DNA of 15,600 nucleotides from contig DUGC01000092.1 in the NCBI GenBank assembly GCA_013331625.1, forward strand, positions 395-15,994, in the 5' to 3' direction. Origin of the DNA: Candidatus Iainarchaeum sp. (GTDB lineage Archaea > Iainarchaeota > Iainarchaeia > Iainarchaeales > Iainarchaeaceae). Below are positions 1,748 to 11,704 of this stretch, piece after piece. A program made the position numbers and the translations under genes. Within the stretch, counting starts at the first letter, position 1, and every line of letters starts with the position of its first letter. The notes below the pieces were generated by a model, which was not told where the DNA came from, searched no databases, and saw only the letters and a program-made list of their open reading frames with translations.

Positions 1748-1780
1748 AAACTGCTGAAATTTCCATTAAATTTTTTGAAC

Positions 1781-3370
1781 TCATTTTTTTGCAGTCTCGA
1801 TTTTTTTGAACAGTATCTCCCTGGGCCCGAGCCTGTGGCCTGCAGGAAGCATATTGAATTTTGCGCCTTCAAGGGTTTTTGGCAGCGCAACCCCAAGCTG
1901 CCTTGCGATGCGCCAGCTCGTATCAGGAAGGAAGGGCTGGAGCAGCACCGCAATTACGGCAACCGAATCAAGCACGGAGTAGAGCACTTCCCCGCACTCC
2001 TTGCCCTCAAGCTTCCACGGCCCCTTGTCATTTACATACTTGTTGCACGCGGAAATAAAGGAGAAAATCTCCGTGAGGGCGTTGTGCGCCTCAAGGGAAT
2101 CCATATACCTTGAAATTTTTGGCAAATCAAGCTTTGATGCAAGCGCGTTATCCGTCTTTGCATCCGGAACTGTTGAGCCGAGCTTTTTTTCCGCCAAAGA
2201 GAGCGCCCGGTTCACTAAGTTCCCGAGCTCATTTGCAAGCTCGTTGTTGTGGCGCTCGATGAGCCCGTCAATCGAAAAGTTGCCGTCCTCGCCGAGGGGG
2301 ATCTCGCGCAGAAGATAATAGCGCACCGCATCGGTGCCGTAAGTATCGGAGAGCGCAATCGGGTCGATTGTCGTCCCTGTGCTCTTTGACAGCTTCTCGC
2401 CGCCTGCGGTATTTATGAAGCCGTGCACGAAGACTTTTCTGGGCGGCTCGATCCCTGCAGAAAAAAGCATTGCGGGGAAAATTACGGAATGAAACCAGAG
2501 GATATCCTTGCCAATGACATGAATATCAGCGGGCCAGAATTTCCTGAATTTTTCTCCGGGGTAATCGATCCCTGAAATGTAATTCAGGAGGGCATCAAAC
2601 CAGACATAAATCACATGCTTTGGGTCGCCCTTTAGCGGTATTCCCCAGCCAAAGCTAGTGCGCGAAACGCTCAGGTCCTTTAGGCCCTCATTCACGCGAT
2701 TGAGTATCTCCTGCCTTTTCCTCCTTGGCCAGATGAAATCGGGATTTTCACTGAAATATTCAAGCAGGCGCTTTTGGTATTTTGACATCGCGAAAAAATA
2801 GCTCTCCTCCTTCACCTTCTCCAAAGGGCGCTTGTGGACCGGGCACAGGCCGTCCGCTAATTCTTTTTCAGTATAGAACGCCTCACAGCCGGTGCAGTAA
2901 AGCCCCTCATATGTGCCGAGATAGATGTCGCCGTTTTTCTGGACCTTCTCGAAAATGTCCCGGCATATTTTCATGTGCGCAGGCTCGCTTGTGCGGATGA
3001 ACCTGTCATAGGAGATGTTCCAGCGCCCGCACAATTTTTTGAATGATCCGACCTGGCCGTCAACGAATTCCTGCGGTGCAATTCCTTCTTTTAGCGCGGC
3101 CTGCTCGATTTTTTTCCCGTGCTCATCTGTGCCCGTGAGGAAAAAAACATCATCACCGCAAAGGCGGTGCCAGCGCGAAATGCAGTCAGCGACGGTTTTC
3201 TCATACGCGTGCCCTAAATGGGGGGATGAATTTGGGTAATCTATTGCAGTGGTGATGAAAAACTTTGCATTTTTGGCGCTTGGCTTTGCGCCCTTCAGCG
3301 CAGTCTTGGGCTTTTTCACAGCGCCCTTGGACTTCTTAATGGCTTTCTTGGCCGATTTCCCCTTTTCCAT
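1781..3370 (-). CDS. metG: Methionyl-tRNA synthetase, bacterial type, with lysine-rich N-terminal tail
   Basis: This 529-residue class I synthetase charges tRNA-Met. Residues 36-42 (KFFITTA) open the Rossmann fold. The HIGH signature is HLGH at 51-54, and the KMSKS loop is KLSKS at 326-330. One zinc knuckle uses C159, C162, C176 and H179 (CTGC...CPVH). Motifs such as YVWFDALLNY, HVIGKDI and RYYLLREIPLGEDG are of the bacterial (Thermus-like) subtype and differ from the usual archaeal enzyme, which suggests old horizontal acquisition. The anticodon-binding helical domain is complete and the protein ends there, without a Trbp111/EMAP-like C-terminal domain. Residues 1-35 are an Ala/Lys-rich, histone-tail-like extension that may add tRNA affinity (inference). 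ATG 3370 lies about 26 nt from a TATA box, so the mRNA should be leaderless. Confidence 0.95.
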   Translation of the reverse strand: MEKGKSAKKAIKKSKGAVKKPKTALKGAKPSAKNAKFFITTAIDYPNSSPHLGHAYEKTVADCISRWHRLCGDDVFFLTGTDEHGKKIEQAALKEGIAPQEFVDGQVGSFKKLCGRWNISYDRFIRTSEPAHMKICRDIFEKVQKNGDIYLGTYEGLYCTGCEAFYTEKELADGLCPVHKRPLEKVKEESYFFAMSKYQKRLLEYFSENPDFIWPRRKRQEILNRVNEGLKDLSVSRTSFGWGIPLKGDPKHVIYVWFDALLNYISGIDYPGEKFRKFWPADIHVIGKDILWFHSVIFPAMLFSAGIEPPRKVFVHGFINTAGGEKLSKSTGTTIDPIALSDTYGTDAVRYYLLREIPLGEDGNFSIDGLIERHNNELANELGNLVNRALSLAEKKLGSTVPDAKTDNALASKLDLPKISRYMDSLEAHNALTEIFSFISACNKYVNDKGPWKLEGKECGEVLYSVLDSVAVIAVLLQPFLPDTSWRIARQLGVALPKTLEGAKFNMLPAGHRLGPREILFKKIETAKK

Positions 3371-3553: not shown

Positions 3554-6500
3554 ATGATTCTGAAAAACCGGATAATAGCTGCGATAATAATCCTGATTGC
3601 GCTCCTTGGCGCCACACTCCTGCTAACAACTGGACAGAAAGCGACAGAAACATACCAGATTCCCTACGGGAATTTCCAACTGACAAAAACTGTCGAGCTT
3701 GCAAACGGCATCCGCACCGAAACAATAACCGTTCCGCAGGGGATGGAAGCGGACATCATCATGGTTGTCCCGAAAGAGATCGCACAGAGCGCGGGCGAGC
3801 TCGAATTCAGCTATGACGGGCAGATGCAGATCCTCAAAGACGACCCGGTCATAAAGTTCACACGCAGCGAGGAAAAAGGCAAAAAGGAAATTAAGGTTAA
3901 AACGAAAAGAGCCCAGAGCCCCAAAGGCGAATCATCAGGCTTATTCAGTACGCCCGATATCAGGGCCGAGCCACAGACAATGGTGGTTGCAGTCCCCGCA
4001 CAAATGAACGAGGCCGTGAAATCCGAGATAGCAGACATCGTTGCTGAAACGCAGGATGCGCTTGGCACTTCCTCAAATGCAGGCAACTTCCAGGCCATAG
4101 CCCAAAAGCAAATTGAAGCTGAAAAAGTGTTTGCGCAGGAATTGTCAGCAAACCCGCAGGTAGCGCAATATTACGCAAATAAAATAACAAATGCACAGGG
4201 CCAGAATGAACCGGCACAATCAGCTGCAATAAGGGCAATGGAGATCGCCCTTAGCGCAAAGCTTTCAGCCGAGAAGGGGCAGGAAATAATTGCCAACAAC
4301 GCGGCACAGGATTTTGCAGGGGATGACTTGCCTGCCATGATCAGCGCATCACTTGGGCAGGGTGAAATTTCCACAGACGGCAGCACGGTACTTTGGCTGC
4401 AGCTGCCCGAACCTGAAAAAAAGGGAGCCAAGGCCTTCCGCCCGATTGTCGGGCTGTTTTCAAAAAAATACATCAAGCCATCGGACTTATTTGTTGCAAT
4501 CATGAGCATTGAGGAAATGAATGCATACCTTGACGGCAGGCCTTTTGAGGCAAAGAAAAAAGTTTTTGCAAAAGAGAAAGTCCCCGTCGGCGGCAATGCC
4601 GCCCTTGAAATATCCGCAAAAGACCTCGGACTGAGAGAAGGGCAATACTATATTGTAATGCCCCGCAAGGACAAGCCCGCGGCCCTCAACAGGTTCGCAT
4701 TTGAAGGCAGGTCGGCACAGGGAATTCCGCTCAGCGTGACTTCGCAAAAAGGCGGCAGGCCTGAAGTGGAAGCGGTTAAAGTTCTGGTGCAAAGCGAGGA
4801 CCTCATGTACGGCGACCCATACAAGAACGTAATGGGTGAAGATGGAAAACCGGCAGAGGGGTTTGCTGGCAGGCCCGTAATCTATGCAGACCAGAACATT
4901 GAGATTAATATCACCCCTGAAAAGGAACTCGACGGCATCATTGTCACGGCAATACTGGAAGAGGAAAAAGAGCCTGAAAAGCGGCCTGAAGGGGAAGAGC
5001 AGCCCGATGCACAAAAGCAGCCTGCAGAAGGGGAAAAGACCGATGCCCGGATAATGGAGGAGGGCAGAAGGGAGCTTGGGAACATCTTGAAAAAAACAGG
5101 CGAAATCATCGGAAAAGTACAAGTATTCACCAATCTTGACAAGCTCATGCCATACCTGGCATACGGCGAGAACAAGGTAAAGCTCAAGGTGCAGTCAACC
5201 AAGCGCCCCTTAAAGCTTGAATTCAGGCAGGATGCAGGGGAGGAAAAGGAGCAGGATGAGATCACAATCACGGTTATCAAGCCAGAACCCTGGCCTGAAG
5301 ATATCGAAGTAGGCGTTACGGATGTGAATCCGTCGGCAACTGAAATTATTCCGCTCCCTGAAGATTTCATCAGGGCAAAGATCAGGGAACAAAACCCCGC
5401 GCTTTCCACAGGAGCGCTCCCAACACCCACAGTAGAGCTGTACTTTAAGGGCACGCAGCTGCCGGTGCCTGCAACGAGCCCCTACTACATCCCGCTCACA
5501 ATAGCGGAAAAGGACAAAAAAAGGGAAATTGAAATCAGAATCGCGGATGCGAAAAAGATGTTTGCAAATGTGCAGGCTCCCGCAAAGACGGAGTATGATA
5601 TCAGGTTCTTTTACGGGATCGGCACAGGCGAATACCAGATAACAAGCCTTACAGTAAGCTATAACGAGCCGGGAATAATTGCCAGCCAGCCCGGATTTGG
5701 GGAAGCTGCAGGAAAAATCTCCAAAATGACCGGATGGGAATACATGATTGCCGACACATCCGATGCGCAGGATGCAGGCGAAAACATCAGGAAGCAGATT
5801 GTTGCCAAAATTTCGGGAAAAGACATCAAATACCTTCTCTTTGTAGAGGACAGCAAGAAAGGGCTGCCCCTTGGCGCGCCCACGCGCGAAGGGCTTGTTG
5901 ATGCGGACCGGGACATATTCCTTAGCGCAGGGACAATCTCAGCCCCAACAAACAAAGAGGCTGTTGGAATAATGAAGAACGATCTTGCAGGCCTGCCCGC
6001 AATCATTGTTTCATTCACGGATATGGAGAGCGCAATTTATGCTGACAGCCCTGCCTTTCAAGAGGAGATAGGAATAGGCACATATATTGAGGTGCAAGAG
6101 GGGATTTGGGCAAGAGTGCCGATGAGGGAAAAGATGGTAAGTGATGAAGCAAAAAGAAAGGAGCTGGATAACGAATTTGCGAGCAGCGGGCAGTATGACG
6201 AAACAACCCCCGGCAGGAAAACCCCGATAGCAATCATCACGGAAAACGGCATGCTGACACTTTATTTCAATGACCCGCAGCAGGGATGGAAGACCGACCC
6301 TCTCCCGCAATTCAAGGAGGCAGTTACTGTTACTGACACGCGGGCAAGGGAAAGGCTTGATGAAATTTTTGAGCAAAGGCTCAAAGAGGCCGGAAAGGAT
6401 GATGGCAAGCTGCTAGCGTTAGCATATTTCAACCCTGCCGACACTTCAGGCAAACCTATGCGCCAGCTCCTCATAACTGAAGTGGAAACGCTGGCCAGTG

Positions 6501-7780
6501 CACAAATACAAAATAAAGCAGGCGAAAACAGGTTAAAGCGCCTTGGAAAAATCGAATCCTTTGCATTCTCACACACCAGCCCCAAACTCGCAATCCCTGC
6601 AGATGGCAAGGAGCCGGAACTTGGAGCAGATTCAGCCCTTGTGGTTGCCAATGCAACCGTGGAAAATTTTACAAGGCTTGCGGCAAAGGCAGGGATAATT
6701 GAAATTGATGCAAAAGTATGCCCTCCCGGATTCAAAGAGATCCTCACGGGAGGAATGAAGGGAAAAGTGAAGGCCGTGGTTTTCGACGGCGCAGGATGCC
6801 TTGGGGGGGAAAAGCCAGACATGGAAAATTTCCCCGCCTTTTTTGAGTGCACCAAGGGGTGCGGGTCCGCATTGCTATCATACCTGAACATAAGGCCGGG
6901 CCATTCAATCGGCGAAGCTGCAAGGGGGGTTATGATTGCAAATGCATCTGCAGGGCTGCCTGTGAGCGAATTTGCACTCTATGGAAATCCTGCACTGGTG
7001 ATTCCAAACCTGAAGGCACCTTCAAGCGAATACACGGGCACGGGGCTGGCGGTAAAGAAAGTAAGGGCAACAGACCTCCTCAATTTCAGCGCGGCAAATG
7101 AAGGCCCTGCCGCATGCATTGCGGAAATGAACAAGCGCAATGAGGCAGCACTGGATAAATGGGTAATTATAGGATTAAAGGGGGAAGATAAAAGCGCAGT
7201 CACAAATACCCAGGGGTTCAGGATAAATGACTCCACCCCCACAAAATTTTCAGCAGGCAGCCCGAAAGAAGCGGATGAATTCGGCCTCTTCAAGATAGTT
7301 GGGGATGGCCAGGAGCTTGAATCACCTCTCATAAAACAGGGGAATGCATATCTCGCAACACTGCCATTGCAACTTTTTTCAGAAAGCGCAAATAAATCAG
7401 ATACCGCGCAGCTGGAATTTGAAATTGATGCGCAGAAGAATACAGTAACCATGGTCAGCCCAAGCACTGAGCTGGAGAAAATTGAAAATATCCTTGCGCA
7501 GAAATGCTTCTACCCTTCGCAGGCAACGCTGATAAAGCTCTCAAAGGATGGCAGCTATATATACAACGGAAGCAGGATCATTGCTGCCGGCGGGGAGAAC
7601 ATGCTTGACTTTTCAAAGGCCAAGAAGGCAGTATTCGAAATTTCCGGCAAAAAAATGGAAACTGCAGTGAGTGCCGGCAACGCGAAAAAACTTGGCATTG
7701 CACTCAGCCCTTCAGTGAAGAATTTCCTCTATGAGAACGGGGCAATAGAGAGCGGCTATACTGTCACGCTGCAAAGCTGA
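3554..7780 (+). CDS. Giant exported or membrane-anchored protein with a degenerate gingipain/CHAT-like (C25, caspase-fold) domain
   Basis: This 1408-residue protein is not recognised as a whole. One hydrophobic segment at residues 6-25 acts as signal peptide or membrane anchor. No other membrane span is visible, so the bulk should be outside the cell. Then come a beta-rich region (30-130), an Ala/Gln-rich helical region (150-265), further beta-rich repeats, and an acidic Glu/Pro/Gln linker (about 468-505). Residues 720-1151 follow the C25/CHAT outline: KYLLFVED (759-766), GLVDADRDIF (780-789), ISAPTNKEAV, IIEIDAK (1048-1054), VVFDGAGCLGG with candidate nucleophile C1082, a GCGSALLSYL helix, SIGEAARG (1118-1125) and the terminal FALYGNPALVIP (1140-1151). 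The usual His before the Cys strand is Lys1054, so the domain may be a pseudo-enzyme. C1056, C1082, C1099 and C1103 cluster and could form disulfides. About 250 residues of unknown type follow. The fold call is inference and the function is unknown. Confidence 0.85.
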   Translation: MILKNRIIAAIIILIALLGATLLLTTGQKATETYQIPYGNFQLTKTVELANGIRTETITVPQGMEADIIMVVPKEIAQSAGELEFSYDGQMQILKDDPVIKFTRSEEKGKKEIKVKTKRAQSPKGESSGLFSTPDIRAEPQTMVVAVPAQMNEAVKSEIADIVAETQDALGTSSNAGNFQAIAQKQIEAEKVFAQELSANPQVAQYYANKITNAQGQNEPAQSAAIRAMEIALSAKLSAEKGQEIIANNAAQDFAGDDLPAMISASLGQGEISTDGSTVLWLQLPEPEKKGAKAFRPIVGLFSKKYIKPSDLFVAIMSIEEMNAYLDGRPFEAKKKVFAKEKVPVGGNAALEISAKDLGLREGQYYIVMPRKDKPAALNRFAFEGRSAQGIPLSVTSQKGGRPEVEAVKVLVQSEDLMYGDPYKNVMGEDGKPAEGFAGRPVIYADQNIEINITPEKELDGIIVTAILEEEKEPEKRPEGEEQPDAQKQPAEGEKTDARIMEEGRRELGNILKKTGEIIGKVQVFTNLDKLMPYLAYGENKVKLKVQSTKRPLKLEFRQDAGEEKEQDEITITVIKPEPWPEDIEVGVTDVNPSATEIIPLPEDFIRAKIREQNPALSTGALPTPTVELYFKGTQLPVPATSPYYIPLTIAEKDKKREIEIRIADAKKMFANVQAPAKTEYDIRFFYGIGTGEYQITSLTVSYNEPGIIASQPGFGEAAGKISKMTGWEYMIADTSDAQDAGENIRKQIVAKISGKDIKYLLFVEDSKKGLPLGAPTREGLVDADRDIFLSAGTISAPTNKEAVGIMKNDLAGLPAIIVSFTDMESAIYADSPAFQEEIGIGTYIEVQEGIWARVPMREKMVSDEAKRKELDNEFASSGQYDETTPGRKTPIAIITENGMLTLYFNDPQQGWKTDPLPQFKEAVTVTDTRARERLDEIFEQRLKEAGKDDGKLLALAYFNPADTSGKPMRQLLITEVETLASAQIQNKAGENRLKRLGKIESFAFSHTSPKLAIPADGKEPELGADSALVVANATVENFTRLAAKAGIIEIDAKVCPPGFKEILTGGMKGKVKAVVFDGAGCLGGEKPDMENFPAFFECTKGCGSALLSYLNIRPGHSIGEAARGVMIANASAGLPVSEFALYGNPALVIPNLKAPSSEYTGTGLAVKKVRATDLLNFSAANEGPAACIAEMNKRNEAALDKWVIIGLKGEDKSAVTNTQGFRINDSTPTKFSAGSPKEADEFGLFKIVGDGQELESPLIKQGNAYLATLPLQLFSESANKSDTAQLEFEIDAQKNTVTMVSPSTELEKIENILAQKCFYPSQATLIKLSKDGSYIYNGSRIIAAGGENMLDFSKAKKAVFEISGKKMETAVSAGNAKKLGIALSPSVKNFLYENGAIESGYTVTLQS

Positions 7781-8117: not shown

Positions 8118-8136
8118 ACATACGCGCAGCGGCAAT

Positions 8137-8162
8137 GAGGTTTAGATGGGGTTTTAAACCTC
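8137..8162 (+). promoter_or_regulatory. 8-bp hairpin just before the mcm SD site, overlapping a possible TATA box
   Basis: GAGGTTTA (8137-8144) is the exact complement of TAAACCTC (8155-8162) across a 10-nt loop. Its 3' arm includes TTTTAAAC, a good TATA candidate in its own right. The element therefore either folds in a long leader RNA or is the proximal promoter itself. Confidence 0.5.
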
Positions 8163-8175
8163 GCGAGCCAGTTTT

Positions 8176-8181
8176 AGGTGG
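8176..8181 (+). promoter_or_regulatory. Shine-Dalgarno site of mcm
   Basis: AGGTGG lies in the block CAGTTTTAGGTGG (8169-8181), identical to 1281-1293 before aIF5A. Its distance to the second of two tandem ATGs (8189) is 7 nt, exactly as in aIF5A, which favours 8189 as the start. Confidence 0.65.
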
Positions 8182-8188
8182 GGATATG

Positions 8189-11100
8189 ATGGCTGAAAAT
8201 TCGCCCGGGCAGCGTGAGGACAACCCTTTTGTGGAAAAATTCAGGGAATTTCTCGAAGAGAGATATAAAAAGGAAATCGAGAGGCTCTCAAATGAATACC
8301 CCGCAAAGCGCAGCATATTTGTCGATTTCCGCGAGCTTGAGCACTACGATACAGAGCTTGCAGACGAGCTTTTGGCAAATTCTGACACCTGCATCGATGC
8401 GGCCCATCAGGCAATAAAAGAGATCGAAATCCCGCTCCTTGACATAGGGCAGGAAGGCTTCGCGCCGCACATACGCATCTTCAACCTGCCAATTGACAGG
8501 CAGCCAAAGCTAAAGGACATCAGCGCAAGCCACATCGGAAAGATCATCAGCGTCGAAGGCGTTGTAAGGCAGGTCACTGATGTCTTGCCAAAGCTAAAGT
8601 TCGCGAGCTGGAAATGCACGCGCTGCGAGGCAAACTACAAAGTGCCCCAGACAAAGAGCATCCCGAAAATGCCCACATTCTGTTCAGAGTGCAAGAACAG
8701 GGTTTTTGTTCTGGAGGAGGAATCAAGCGAATTTGAGGATTACCAGAAAATTCAGGTGCAAGAGCCCCTTGAGCTTTTGAAGGGAAGCGAGCAGGCGACG
8801 AACCTTGACATTTACGTAAGCGATGACCTTGTGAACAGGATCAGCCCGGGCGATCGCACAAGGATAACAGGCATAGTGCGCCTCATGCCCCCCAAGGAAA
8901 AGAAAGTGGTGTATGGCAGGTACCTTGAGGCGCTGCACCTTGAGGAGACTGCAAGGGAATTTGAGGAAGTCGAGATTAACCCTGATGAGGAAGAGGAAAT
9001 AAAAAAGCTTGCCGCACGCGATGACATTTATGACCTGCTCATACAAAGCATAGCCCCGCATATTTACGGCCATGAAGTGATGAAGGAATCAATCGCGCTC
9101 CAGCTTTTTGGGGGCGTGAAAAAGAACCTGCCAAACGACCAGCATGTGAGGGGGAATATCCACGTGCTGTTGGTAGGCGATCCGGGAATGGCCAAGTGCG
9201 TTTCAGGAGACACGAGGATGCTCATGAGCGACGGCACTTTATGCAGGATGGATGAATTTGCCGCAAAACACCTTGATGAAAATACAGCCACAAAGCTCGA
9301 TGACGGTTTTTACTCTGATGCTGATGCAACAATCCCGGTGATGGACGGGAACGGGAAAATCAGGGATGGAAAAGTTATAAGGGTCTTCAAGAGGAAACCC
9401 ACTGAAATGTTCGAAATCATGACATGGAGCGGCAGGAAAGTCAAAGTGACGCACACACACCCGCTCTTTGTATGCTCGGAAGGAAAAATAAAGGCAATCA
9501 AGGCAATGAACCTGGCCACAACTGATTTCGTGGCCGTTCCACGGAAACTACAGCTTAAAGGCAGGATGCAAAAGCTCGAAATGCCATGCACCGGAAAAAC
9601 CAACGCGGCCCACATCACTGTGCCGCAATACCTGAATGCTGAAGTGGCAAGGTTCATGGGGTACTTTTGCGCAGAAGGATACAGTGAAAAGACCAGGTCA
9701 ACAATTGGACTGAGATTCACTAACTCCGACAAGGAAGCGCTAGATGATTTCACGCGCATTTCAGTAAGGGAATTCGGCATCACACCCCATAGCAGAAATG
9801 GCAATAATTGCACAGAAGTTCGGGTCAGCGGAGTAGAACTTGGGGGCCTATTGAAAAAAAACGCGCCGGGAATACTTGAAAGGCCGGCAGGCAGGCACAT
9901 ACCGCAAAAAATACTATCAAGCACTCTTGAGGTCAAAAGGGAATTTTTACGCGGTTATTATGAAGGTGAAGGCCATGTCAGGAGAGATATACGGATGGTC
10001 GAGCTCTGCACCGCGAGCCCCCTTCTCGCGCAACAACTCAGGCAGATGCTCCTGGAATTCGGCATTGTGAGCACCTGCAAGGAAGTGGACAACTGCGCAA
10101 CGAACGGCAGCAGGGCCTACCGCAAGTATTACCGGACAAGGATCGGGGGAAAGTTCGCGATAAGATTCGCAAAAGAAATCGGCTTCATAACGGAGCGCAA
10201 GAAGGCCGCACTTGCAAAATGCACACTCAACGGCAAAAATATCAACACCAATAACGATATAGTGCCAAATATTGGCAAGGAGCTCAAAAAAGCGAGGGAA
10301 CTGCTGGGCCTAAGCCAGTTCAAAATGGGCATTGCGCGCACCACTTACCAGCACTTTGAAAGGGGTGACCGGAACCCTAGCAGGGAAGCGCTGCAAAAAA
10401 TTGCGATTACCCTCATCGGCGAACTTGAGCTCAGCAATTCATATGATAAGGAGTTGCAGGAGAAAGTCCTCAACATCCACAAGCATGCATTTTCTGAAAT
10501 ATTTTGGGACAGGATAAAAAAGGCGGAAAAAATCGAAAACGAAGAATGGATTTATGATGTTGAGGTTGAGCAGTTCCATAACTTCATTTCAAACGGAGTG
10601 ATATCACATAACTCCCAGATTCTCAAAGCAACCGATGCAATAGCGCCCAAATCGATTTATGTCGCCGGAAAAACATCCACAGGAGCGGGGCTTAGCGCCA
10701 CTGCGGTAAAGGATGAGTTCGGCGAAGGCGGCTGGACTCTCAAGGCAGGGGCGCTTGTGCTCGCTTCGGGCGGAATGGCGATGGTCGATGAATTCGACAA
10801 GATGGAAAAAGATGACCGGAGCGCAATGCATGAGGCCATGGAGCAGCAGCAGATAAGCGTTGCGAAGGCGGGGATAGTTACAAAATTCAAGTGTGACACA
10901 TCAATACTAGCTGCCGCAAACCCCAAGTACTCGCGCTTCGACCCCTACCAGCCATTCATAGAGCAGATTGACCTTCCTGCTTCACTCATAAGCAGGTTCG
11001 ACCTGTTCTTCATGATAAAGGATGTGCTTGACAGGAAGAAGGACCTGGAAATCGCGGGGCACATACTCAAGAGCCACAAGGCAGGGGAGATGATGCTCCA

Positions 11101-11704
11101 GCGCATGAAGCAGGGCATAAGCAAGAAGGATGAGGAGCTTGAGGAGATCACCGAGCTCATAACCCCCAAGATTTCAGGCGAGATACTCAAGAAGTACATT
11201 TCGTACGCGAGGCAAAACATTTTCCCGGTCCTCGAGAACGACTCGATGCAGGAAATCTCGGATTTCTATATAGCTCTCAGGGACCAGGGAAGGAAAGAGG
11301 GGGCTTACAGCGCGACCCACAGGCAACTCGAGGGAATGATAAGGCTCTCCGAGGCATCCGCGAGAGTGAGGCTTAGCAACAAGGTTGAGAGGCGCGACGT
11401 TGAAAGAGCCATAAGGCTAATTCGCACTTCGCTCGAGGACATGGTAACCGATCCGGAGACAGGCAAGATTGACATCGACATAATCACCTCAGGGCAAACC
11501 CATACAATGCTCTCGAACCTAAAGAAAATCCTTGGAATAATAAGGGAAAAGGCACAGGAATTTGACATCGTTCCGATGGAGGAAGTCATCAGCGAGGCAA
11601 AGACAATGGGCATTGACGCGGAAAAAGTTAGGGAGCTGATTGCAAAGCTGCAGAAGTCTGGGGACATCTACTACCCGAAACACGGGTTCGTGAAGCCGGC
11701 GTGA
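8189..11704 (+). CDS. mcm: Replicative helicase MCM, precursor with intein in Walker A
   Basis: The precursor has 1171 residues; the spliced protein would have 699, which is normal for archaeal MCM. MCM is the hexameric 3'-5' helicase of replication. The N-terminal domain has a zinc site (C143, C146, C165, C168) within an OB-fold. The AAA+ core has Walker A GDPGMAK|S, split after K336 by the intein (337-808). After it come Walker B GMAMVDEFDKM, sensor 1 ILAAANP, the arginine-finger segment LISRFDLFF and the sensor 2 region ATHRQLEGMIRLSE, then a C-terminal winged-helix region. Without splicing the P-loop is broken, so activity depends on the intein. The frame is open upstream to 8135, but the SD site and family alignment favour 8189. 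A T-rich stretch near 11738-11743 may end the transcript. Confidence 0.96.
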   Translation: MAENSPGQREDNPFVEKFREFLEERYKKEIERLSNEYPAKRSIFVDFRELEHYDTELADELLANSDTCIDAAHQAIKEIEIPLLDIGQEGFAPHIRIFNLPIDRQPKLKDISASHIGKIISVEGVVRQVTDVLPKLKFASWKCTRCEANYKVPQTKSIPKMPTFCSECKNRVFVLEEESSEFEDYQKIQVQEPLELLKGSEQATNLDIYVSDDLVNRISPGDRTRITGIVRLMPPKEKKVVYGRYLEALHLEETAREFEEVEINPDEEEEIKKLAARDDIYDLLIQSIAPHIYGHEVMKESIALQLFGGVKKNLPNDQHVRGNIHVLLVGDPGMAKCVSGDTRMLMSDGTLCRMDEFAAKHLDENTATKLDDGFYSDADATIPVMDGNGKIRDGKVIRVFKRKPTEMFEIMTWSGRKVKVTHTHPLFVCSEGKIKAIKAMNLATTDFVAVPRKLQLKGRMQKLEMPCTGKTNAAHITVPQYLNAEVARFMGYFCAEGYSEKTRSTIGLRFTNSDKEALDDFTRISVREFGITPHSRNGNNCTEVRVSGVELGGLLKKNAPGILERPAGRHIPQKILSSTLEVKREFLRGYYEGEGHVRRDIRMVELCTASPLLAQQLRQMLLEFGIVSTCKEVDNCATNGSRAYRKYYRTRIGGKFAIRFAKEIGFITERKKAALAKCTLNGKNINTNNDIVPNIGKELKKARELLGLSQFKMGIARTTYQHFERGDRNPSREALQKIAITLIGELELSNSYDKELQEKVLNIHKHAFSEIFWDRIKKAEKIENEEWIYDVEVEQFHNFISNGVISHNSQILKATDAIAPKSIYVAGKTSTGAGLSATAVKDEFGEGGWTLKAGALVLASGGMAMVDEFDKMEKDDRSAMHEAMEQQQISVAKAGIVTKFKCDTSILAAANPKYSRFDPYQPFIEQIDLPASLISRFDLFFMIKDVLDRKKDLEIAGHILKSHKAGEMMLQRMKQGISKKDEELEEITELITPKISGEILKKYISYARQNIFPVLENDSMQEISDFYIALRDQGRKEGAYSATHRQLEGMIRLSEASARVRLSNKVERRDVERAIRLIRTSLEDMVTDPETGKIDIDIITSGQTHTMLSNLKKILGIIREKAQEFDIVPMEEVISEAKTMGIDAEKVRELIAKLQKSGDIYYPKHGFVKPA
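9197..10612 (+). mobile_element. MCM intein (472 residues) with LAGLIDADG homing endonuclease and XRE-like HTH
   Basis: This is an in-frame insertion between Walker A lysine K336 and Ser809. It begins CVSGDTRMLMSDG (block A, Cys1 nucleophile), has the block B motif VTHTHPLF (T421, H424), and ends YDVEVEQFHNFISNGVISHN, followed by Ser as the +1 residue. These are the complete Cys1/His-Asn/Ser+1 splicing residues. The endonuclease has two LAGLIDADG-type motifs, FMGYFCAEGY (489-498) and FLRGYYEGEG (586-595), with acidic residues present at E496 and E594. Between the second motif and the C-terminal splicing block lies a helix-turn-helix of XRE type, residues about 695-740 (LKKARELLGLSQ, then FERGDRNPSREALQKIA). 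Both splicing and cleavage functions look intact. The P-loop is a known MCM intein site. Confidence 0.95.

Follow-up and report, generated by a model that had tools for sequence, protein, structure and literature searches.

The window analysed here is a 15,600-nucleotide stretch of a small archaeal genome (Candidatus Iainarchaeum sp., contig DUGC01000092.1, positions 395 to 15,994). It encodes a 1408-residue protein whose middle part (residues 706-1154), judging from profile comparisons, very probably descends from the domain of a C25 cysteine peptidase. The explanation we favour, and consider likely, is that the protein is a surface-anchored pseudopeptidase derived from a C25 peptidase and used for binding or scaffolding. 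A hydrophobic N-terminal segment would anchor it in the membrane with the remainder presumably exposed outside the cell, and the middle domain would go back to a peptidase bearing both His and Cys, as in relatives from the Diapherotrites. The His-Gly pair of that ancestor would have been lost, its place being taken by Lys1054-Val1055, so that the normal His/Cys mechanism of clan CD would be unavailable, and it is for this reason that the domain is read as a pseudopeptidase. The old domain, together with an insertion, might then serve on the cell surface as a binding or scaffolding module, a role that is our guess, and we infer that it retains the caspase/gingipain fold. The ancestry, the collinearity with homologues, the absence of His-Gly and the presence of the gene at a site where it is missing from relatives are each results of computation.

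Homologues linking the domain to C25 peptidases

The link of the window protein to family C25 is transitive, running by sequence comparison through relatives. A search of 93 genomes with the window protein matched 11, the window's own included; 10 of the 12 match places in other genomes lie at the N-terminal end and the others at residues 578-748 and 668-732. Both the N-terminal and the pre-C25/C25 kinds of match fall in an 858-residue protein of genome G068 (P0002), named at NCBI 'C25 family cysteine peptidase [Candidatus Diapherotrites archaeon]' and derived from a Lac Pavin metagenome-assembled genome (MAG; contig JAPLVQ010000152.1, isolate LacPavin_0419_WC90_MAG_36_6). The N-terminal 623 residues of P0002 score above the threshold of the Pfam C25 family PF01364 (25.3 bits, cut-off 23), and the protein has the catalytic His-Gly (YSHGSP) and Cys (GEACST). 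When 5.8 billion proteins were searched with P0002, the matches were itself and three proteins organised like it (P0004, P0005 and P0006); a further homologue, P0003 (G036, 1843 residues), resembles the window protein in its N-terminal domain and in its C25 part. The original prediction, made from the letters of the window alone, had supposed a DPANN-like host, and indeed the genome belongs to the same order as G068, whose MAG is labelled Ca. Diapherotrites.

P0002 and the window protein have the same domain order from anchor to C-terminus, with BLASTP matches at residues 5-120 (34% identity, N-terminal domain), 580-787 (26%, E 2e-9) and 1307-1407 (25%). They differ in that P0002 has His-Gly, Cys and a PF01364 match whereas the window protein has Lys-Val, in about 295 extra residues that precede the pre-C25 domain in the window protein (Trp580 versus Trp285), and in the length of the C25 part (449 versus 320 residues). 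Against a full-length profile of P0002, P0004, P0005 and P0006, built without the window and with His/Cys in all four, the window protein scores 132.3 bits, as against 8.7 for the highest of 1000 shuffles, over three collinear segments: residues 6-117 (58.9 bits), 565-755 (26.4 bits) and 1003-1407 (40.7 bits). A C25-domain profile of eight homologues, again excluding the window and with His and Cys in every row, gives 18.7 bits (best of 1000 shuffles, 3.9), mainly from residues 706-772 (14.4 bits) with little contribution from 1104-1152; in the window's own genome this place is the sole match of that profile (profile positions 1-72, E 6.1e-4). Residues 961-1115 alone reach 9.3 bits, a score matched by 1 of 2000 shuffles, and when the domain was compared with the 8-row profile by HHalign the probability was 64% (E 6.4e-5), as opposed to 0.2% for residues 140-559, taken as a control.

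The family itself leads to gingipain R (RgpB; family C25, clan CD), the top PDB sequence both for an 11-row alignment that includes the window (E 0.13) and for the 8-homologue profile that does not (E 0.0076), and PF01364 is matched at E <= 0.1 by 8 of the 11 aligned domains. Within a second and weak stretch (3.5 bits), the catalytic His-Gly and Cys of gingipain R coincide with the homologues' own; the window protein lacks His-Gly and, compared directly, has no detectable similarity to gingipain R. Because of the profile score, the collinear homologues, the Pfam C25 matches of those homologues and the ranking of gingipain R, descent from a C25 domain is put as very probable, and together with the alignment posteriors given below these results uphold the predicted highly diverged C25-type domain inside a probable surface protein. 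The layout of the protein on the plus strand is as follows (BLASTP and profile values as above).

3554..7780, plus: open reading frame of 1408 residues, probable membrane-anchored surface protein with a C25-derived domain
3554..3643, plus: N-terminal hydrophobic segment, residues ~1-30, likely signal anchor (hydropathy scan)
3569..3904, plus: conserved N-terminal domain, residues 6-117 (58.9 bits to the four-homologue profile; matches in relatives)
3905..5245, plus: residues 118-564, no clear relative among the 93 genomes (one N-terminal match extends to residue 134)
5246..5668, plus: conserved pre-C25 domain 'PWPEDIEVGVT...', residues 565-705 (profile segment 565-755; BLASTP)
5669..7015, plus: C25-derived domain, residues 706-1154 (profile alignments and HHalign)
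7016..7777, plus: C-terminal part conserved with homologues, residues 1155-1408 (profile segment 1003-1407; BLASTP 1307-1407)

Residues at the active-site positions

Forward-backward alignment against four or seven homologues, with three gap penalties each, assigns the catalytic His column to Lys1054 (posterior 0.43-0.99), the column of the following Gly to Val1055 (0.37-0.99) and that of the catalytic Cys to Cys1082 (0.58-0.84), each being the top choice in 6/6 settings. Independently of any alignment, H1007 and H1117 are the only His among the 1408 residues and His-Gly occurs nowhere in the protein. The predicted replacement of the catalytic His by Lys1054 is supported. Residue 1054 is encoded by AAA and residue 1082 by TGC. 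To go from a His codon to this Lys codon takes two base changes (CAY to AAA), which a single read error does not explain. It is also unlikely that a frameshift hides a His-Gly: the two other frames of 6560-6860 are interrupted by stops, and the two His-Gly pairs in one of them lie in an arginine-rich stretch unlike the family strand (by eye).

The eight strings quoted in the original prediction each occur once, in the expected order and at the residues given for them (exact-match check): KYLLFVED (759-766), VDADRDIF (782-789), ISAPTNKEAV (795-804), IIEIDAK (1048-1054), VVFDGAGCLGG (1075-1085), GCGSALLSYL (1102-1111), SIGEAARG (1118-1125) and FALYGNPALVIP (1140-1151). Of their assignments to family motifs, two of the eight fail. 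VDADRDIF...ISAPTNKEAV, proposed as the PDIxVGRxPA block, scores below shuffles and has no statistical support, and GCGSALLSYL is set by the profile alignment on the loop after the fifth strand. An alternative placement of the substrate-side block at RVP 854-856 (MAFFT) does not beat shuffles either, and no placement of this block (LDxxYYG...VGRIP in C25 relatives) in the window protein scores above them. A regular expression for the ordered motifs matched 0/5000 shuffles, but it was written post hoc and matches 3/5 homologues, and is not relied on. The motif positions are:

5828..5851, plus: KYLLFVED, corresponding to the YLLILGD strand of the family (alignment to homologues)
5870..6553, plus: residues 773-1000, expected site of the LDxxYYG...VGRIP block, longer than in P0002 (neither placement beats shuffles)
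6695..6718, plus: IIEIDA then K1054-V1055, where the family has the catalytic His-Gly (codon of K1054 at 6713-6715)
6776..6799, plus: VVFDGAG ending in C1082, probable counterpart of the catalytic Cys (C1082 codon 6797-6799)
6863..6928, plus: GSALLSYLNIRPGHSIGEAARG, counterpart of P0002 GLIPFSLFALGKNEGIGE, containing H1117 (four-homologue profile alignment)
6971..7006, plus: FALYGNPALVIP, family 'ILYGDPSITFP' (alignments to homologues)

The catalytic His of RgpB, which we take to be His211, is printed as His221 in PMC4357240. In the part of that paper available to us, the Gly residues on either side of this His (Gly210, Gly212) contact the P1 Arg, Asp163 holds the P1 Arg, and the loop after the fifth strand has residues contacting substrate (PMC4357240). 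Val1055 would thus spoil one RgpB-type Gly contact to the P1 Arg, and the block expected to carry the equivalent of Asp163 has no supported placement in the window protein. Among its other Cys, a pairing with Cys1082 is conceivable for Cys1056, which lies two residues beyond the lost His, and Cys1188 and Cys1318 resemble a Cys pair seen also in P0002, P0004 and P0006 (by eye).

Among 87 genomes of the phylum, 17 matched the 11-row profile, with nine near full-length matches in eight genomes; these and four further PF01364 proteins of the order (G034, G036:C10, G048, G070) make up the 13 C25-like proteins compared. His is kept at the motif in 10 of them, nine as His-Gly and one as His-Ser (G048, L065; by eye). 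The other three, namely the window protein and those of G039 (L057) and G045 (L061), lack His-Gly within the domain and, by alignment, any His at its place. L057 and L061 are alike and retain LDxxYYG-like and VGRIP-like blocks, their Cys being kept or not according to the alignment. A single clade for the three His-less domains is not rejected in the tree (approximately unbiased test, p 0.278; long branches), in which the domain of the window protein has the longest end branch (2.35, median 1.54). The L057 and L061 proteins (L057:2385-6317, minus; L061:1227-4529, minus) are large members of one family with an N-terminal C25 half and the substrate-side block.

Weighing the alternatives

Several results weigh against the pseudopeptidase explanation or the C25 assignment beneath it. 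Searches of Pfam, NCBIfam and PDB sequences with the window protein gave no match to C25, to caspases or to CHAT, which also has a caspase-type fold. The only Pfam hit of the protein was a sub-threshold BT_3987-like_N at residues 547-655 (14.6 bits, cut-off 25.9); the isolated domain had none, PF01364 and CHAT went unmatched by protein and domain alike, and the p20 caspase domain of the C14 pseudo-orthocaspases went unmatched by the protein. NCBIfam and PDB returned weak matches only, unrelated to C25. A direct profile search had been named beforehand as a test that could refute the original prediction, and for the protein itself the outcome was negative; by that standard the missing match speaks against the prediction, but searches with a single sequence have little power here. 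Nor was an orthologue found in protein, contig or family-genome searches. Among 5.8 billion proteins, the window protein found its own cluster only (4 sequences, 1 contig) and the 8-row profile found only the window protein (8000 candidates scored in each case); genome contigs gave no match to the window protein and only the known Lac Pavin contig to a close-family alignment, and the viral contigs scanned gave no match. The seven family genomes contain no relative of the C25-derived domain besides one weak match (E 0.02) in G001, a genome of the same genus; this match was dismissed as chance, the gene reading as a translation initiation factor.

Within the domain, the C-terminal half alone scores 5.8 bits versus 3.9 for shuffles, and HHalign against the 8-row profile covers only the first 66 columns (residues 706-772). 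One alignment and all three MAFFT strategies set no Cys of the window protein in the Cys column and shift C1082 toward the fifth strand, while global HHalign puts the catalytic Cys near C1099/C1103. H1117, a candidate substitute base, has a Ser after it; the presumed catalytic His of the C25 protein L065 likewise precedes a Ser (by eye). The C1099/C1103 placement was rejected, as it would delete the fifth core strand; C1082 is preferred because all core strands are kept and because it fits the alignment of GSALLSYLNIRPGHSIGE on P0002 GLIPFSLFALGKNEGIGE, and it is probably the counterpart of the catalytic Cys. The predicted retention of the Cys is accordingly favoured by the posteriors, in which C1082 comes top, by the four-homologue profile and by one further alignment, and disputed by several others.

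Ser/Lys dyads exist in other proteases, and a rearranged active site could be imagined in which Cys1082 is the nucleophile and is activated by Lys1054 or else by His1117, a residue of the loop that follows the fifth strand. The probable retention of Cys1082 despite loss of the His, the Lys at the His position, and the situation of H1117 in a loop whose RgpB counterpart contacts substrate (available part of PMC4357240) are in keeping with such an enzyme. It nevertheless appears quite improbable, given the Gly to Val change beside the lost His, the unrecognisable substrate-side block, the dependence on a single sequence in which several alignments set no Cys at the nucleophile's place, and the two further proteins of the order without His-Gly, which suggest loss rather than replacement. 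That the domain is instead the decaying, functionless remnant of a C25 protein once active and now under relaxed selection, of which the anchor and C-terminal parts alone still matter, we regard as unlikely: the longest end branch, the unrecognisable middle block and the lack of a relative of the domain in the seven family genomes would suit decay, yet the 1408-codon frame is intact with a G+C content like its surroundings and residues 1003-1154 still align to homologues. Scarcely probable is a middle part unrelated to C25 and inserted between homologous flanking domains; the domain has no direct profile match and residues 773-1000 match nothing, but both of its ends match the homologues collinearly (706-772 and 1003-1154). 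Very little chance, finally, is given to a broader proposal, in which surface C25 peptidases have become pseudopeptidases several times over within the Diapherotrites order and, in the window protein, Cys1082 and Lys1054 would form a working or crosslinking pair within a gingipain fold.

Locus, related proteins and implications

By their translations, the neighbours of the gene are metG (1781-3370, minus strand) and mcm (8135-11704, plus strand). These adjoin divergently, 0.4-1.5 kb apart as measured between the ends of tblastn matches, in 6/6 family relatives with both on one contig (in a seventh, G006, they lie on separate contigs); in the window the gap is 4.8 kb. No trace of the window protein was found in the relatives' metG-mcm gaps (best E 0.87), and among the genomes examined the 1408-residue gene is specific to this lineage. 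The G+C content is 0.47-0.52 across 1-kb steps, the gene resembling its surroundings. The gap of relative G002 (L105, ~1770-3310) contains a 362-codon open frame, homing endonuclease-like by eye, so the junction may be prone to insertion. The MCM helicase frame of the window appears, by eye, to be split by an intein after GDPGMAK.

The N-terminal hydrophobic segment is also present in 5/5 homologues checked (P0002-P0006; hydropathy scan), and the N-terminal domain is common to proteins with other C-terminal parts. Such anchor domains are joined to different C-terminal parts in L017:8042-10420 (plus), L018:4909-7767 (minus) and L020; some of these parts in relatives carry CHAP-like or HExxH-like motifs by eye, and the L017 and L018 proteins have no Pfam match. 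A separate type comprises stand-alone proteins of ~220 residues, caspase/C25-like with 'FNGHG...SCSSA...GAKAFIGY'-like sequence. Four were read, two of which were compared with Pfam and gave no match; further matches lie in G049, G055, G036 and G033.

L091:1330-2019, plus: ~220-residue caspase/C25-like protein
L095:1240-1887, minus: the same type
L094:696-1376, minus: the same type
L097:1276-1956, minus: the same type

Inactive versions of caspase-type peptidases have been described from bacteria. The available part of PMC6426788 describes pseudo-orthocaspases (clan CD, C14) that, as proposed for the window protein, have a caspase-type domain with an altered His/Cys pair and are presumed inactive, but that belong to another family, have Tyr/Ser as the pair and are reported absent from Archaea, where the C14 dyad is intact in 93/93 sequences. 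C25 peptidases of other archaea are present and expressed, many being listed as extracellular, according to the part of PMC6461988 available. The accessible part of PMC12445089 makes no mention of a pseudo-C25 protein, and the open-licence literature, in a search that was not a full survey, held no paper on pseudo-C25 in archaea by title or abstract. Diverged C25 domains can evidently escape direct Pfam searches, relatives being needed for their detection. That a DPANN archaeon carries a disarmed C25 domain in what is probably a surface protein suggests that these small cells may recycle proteases as surface modules, possibly for cell-cell contact.

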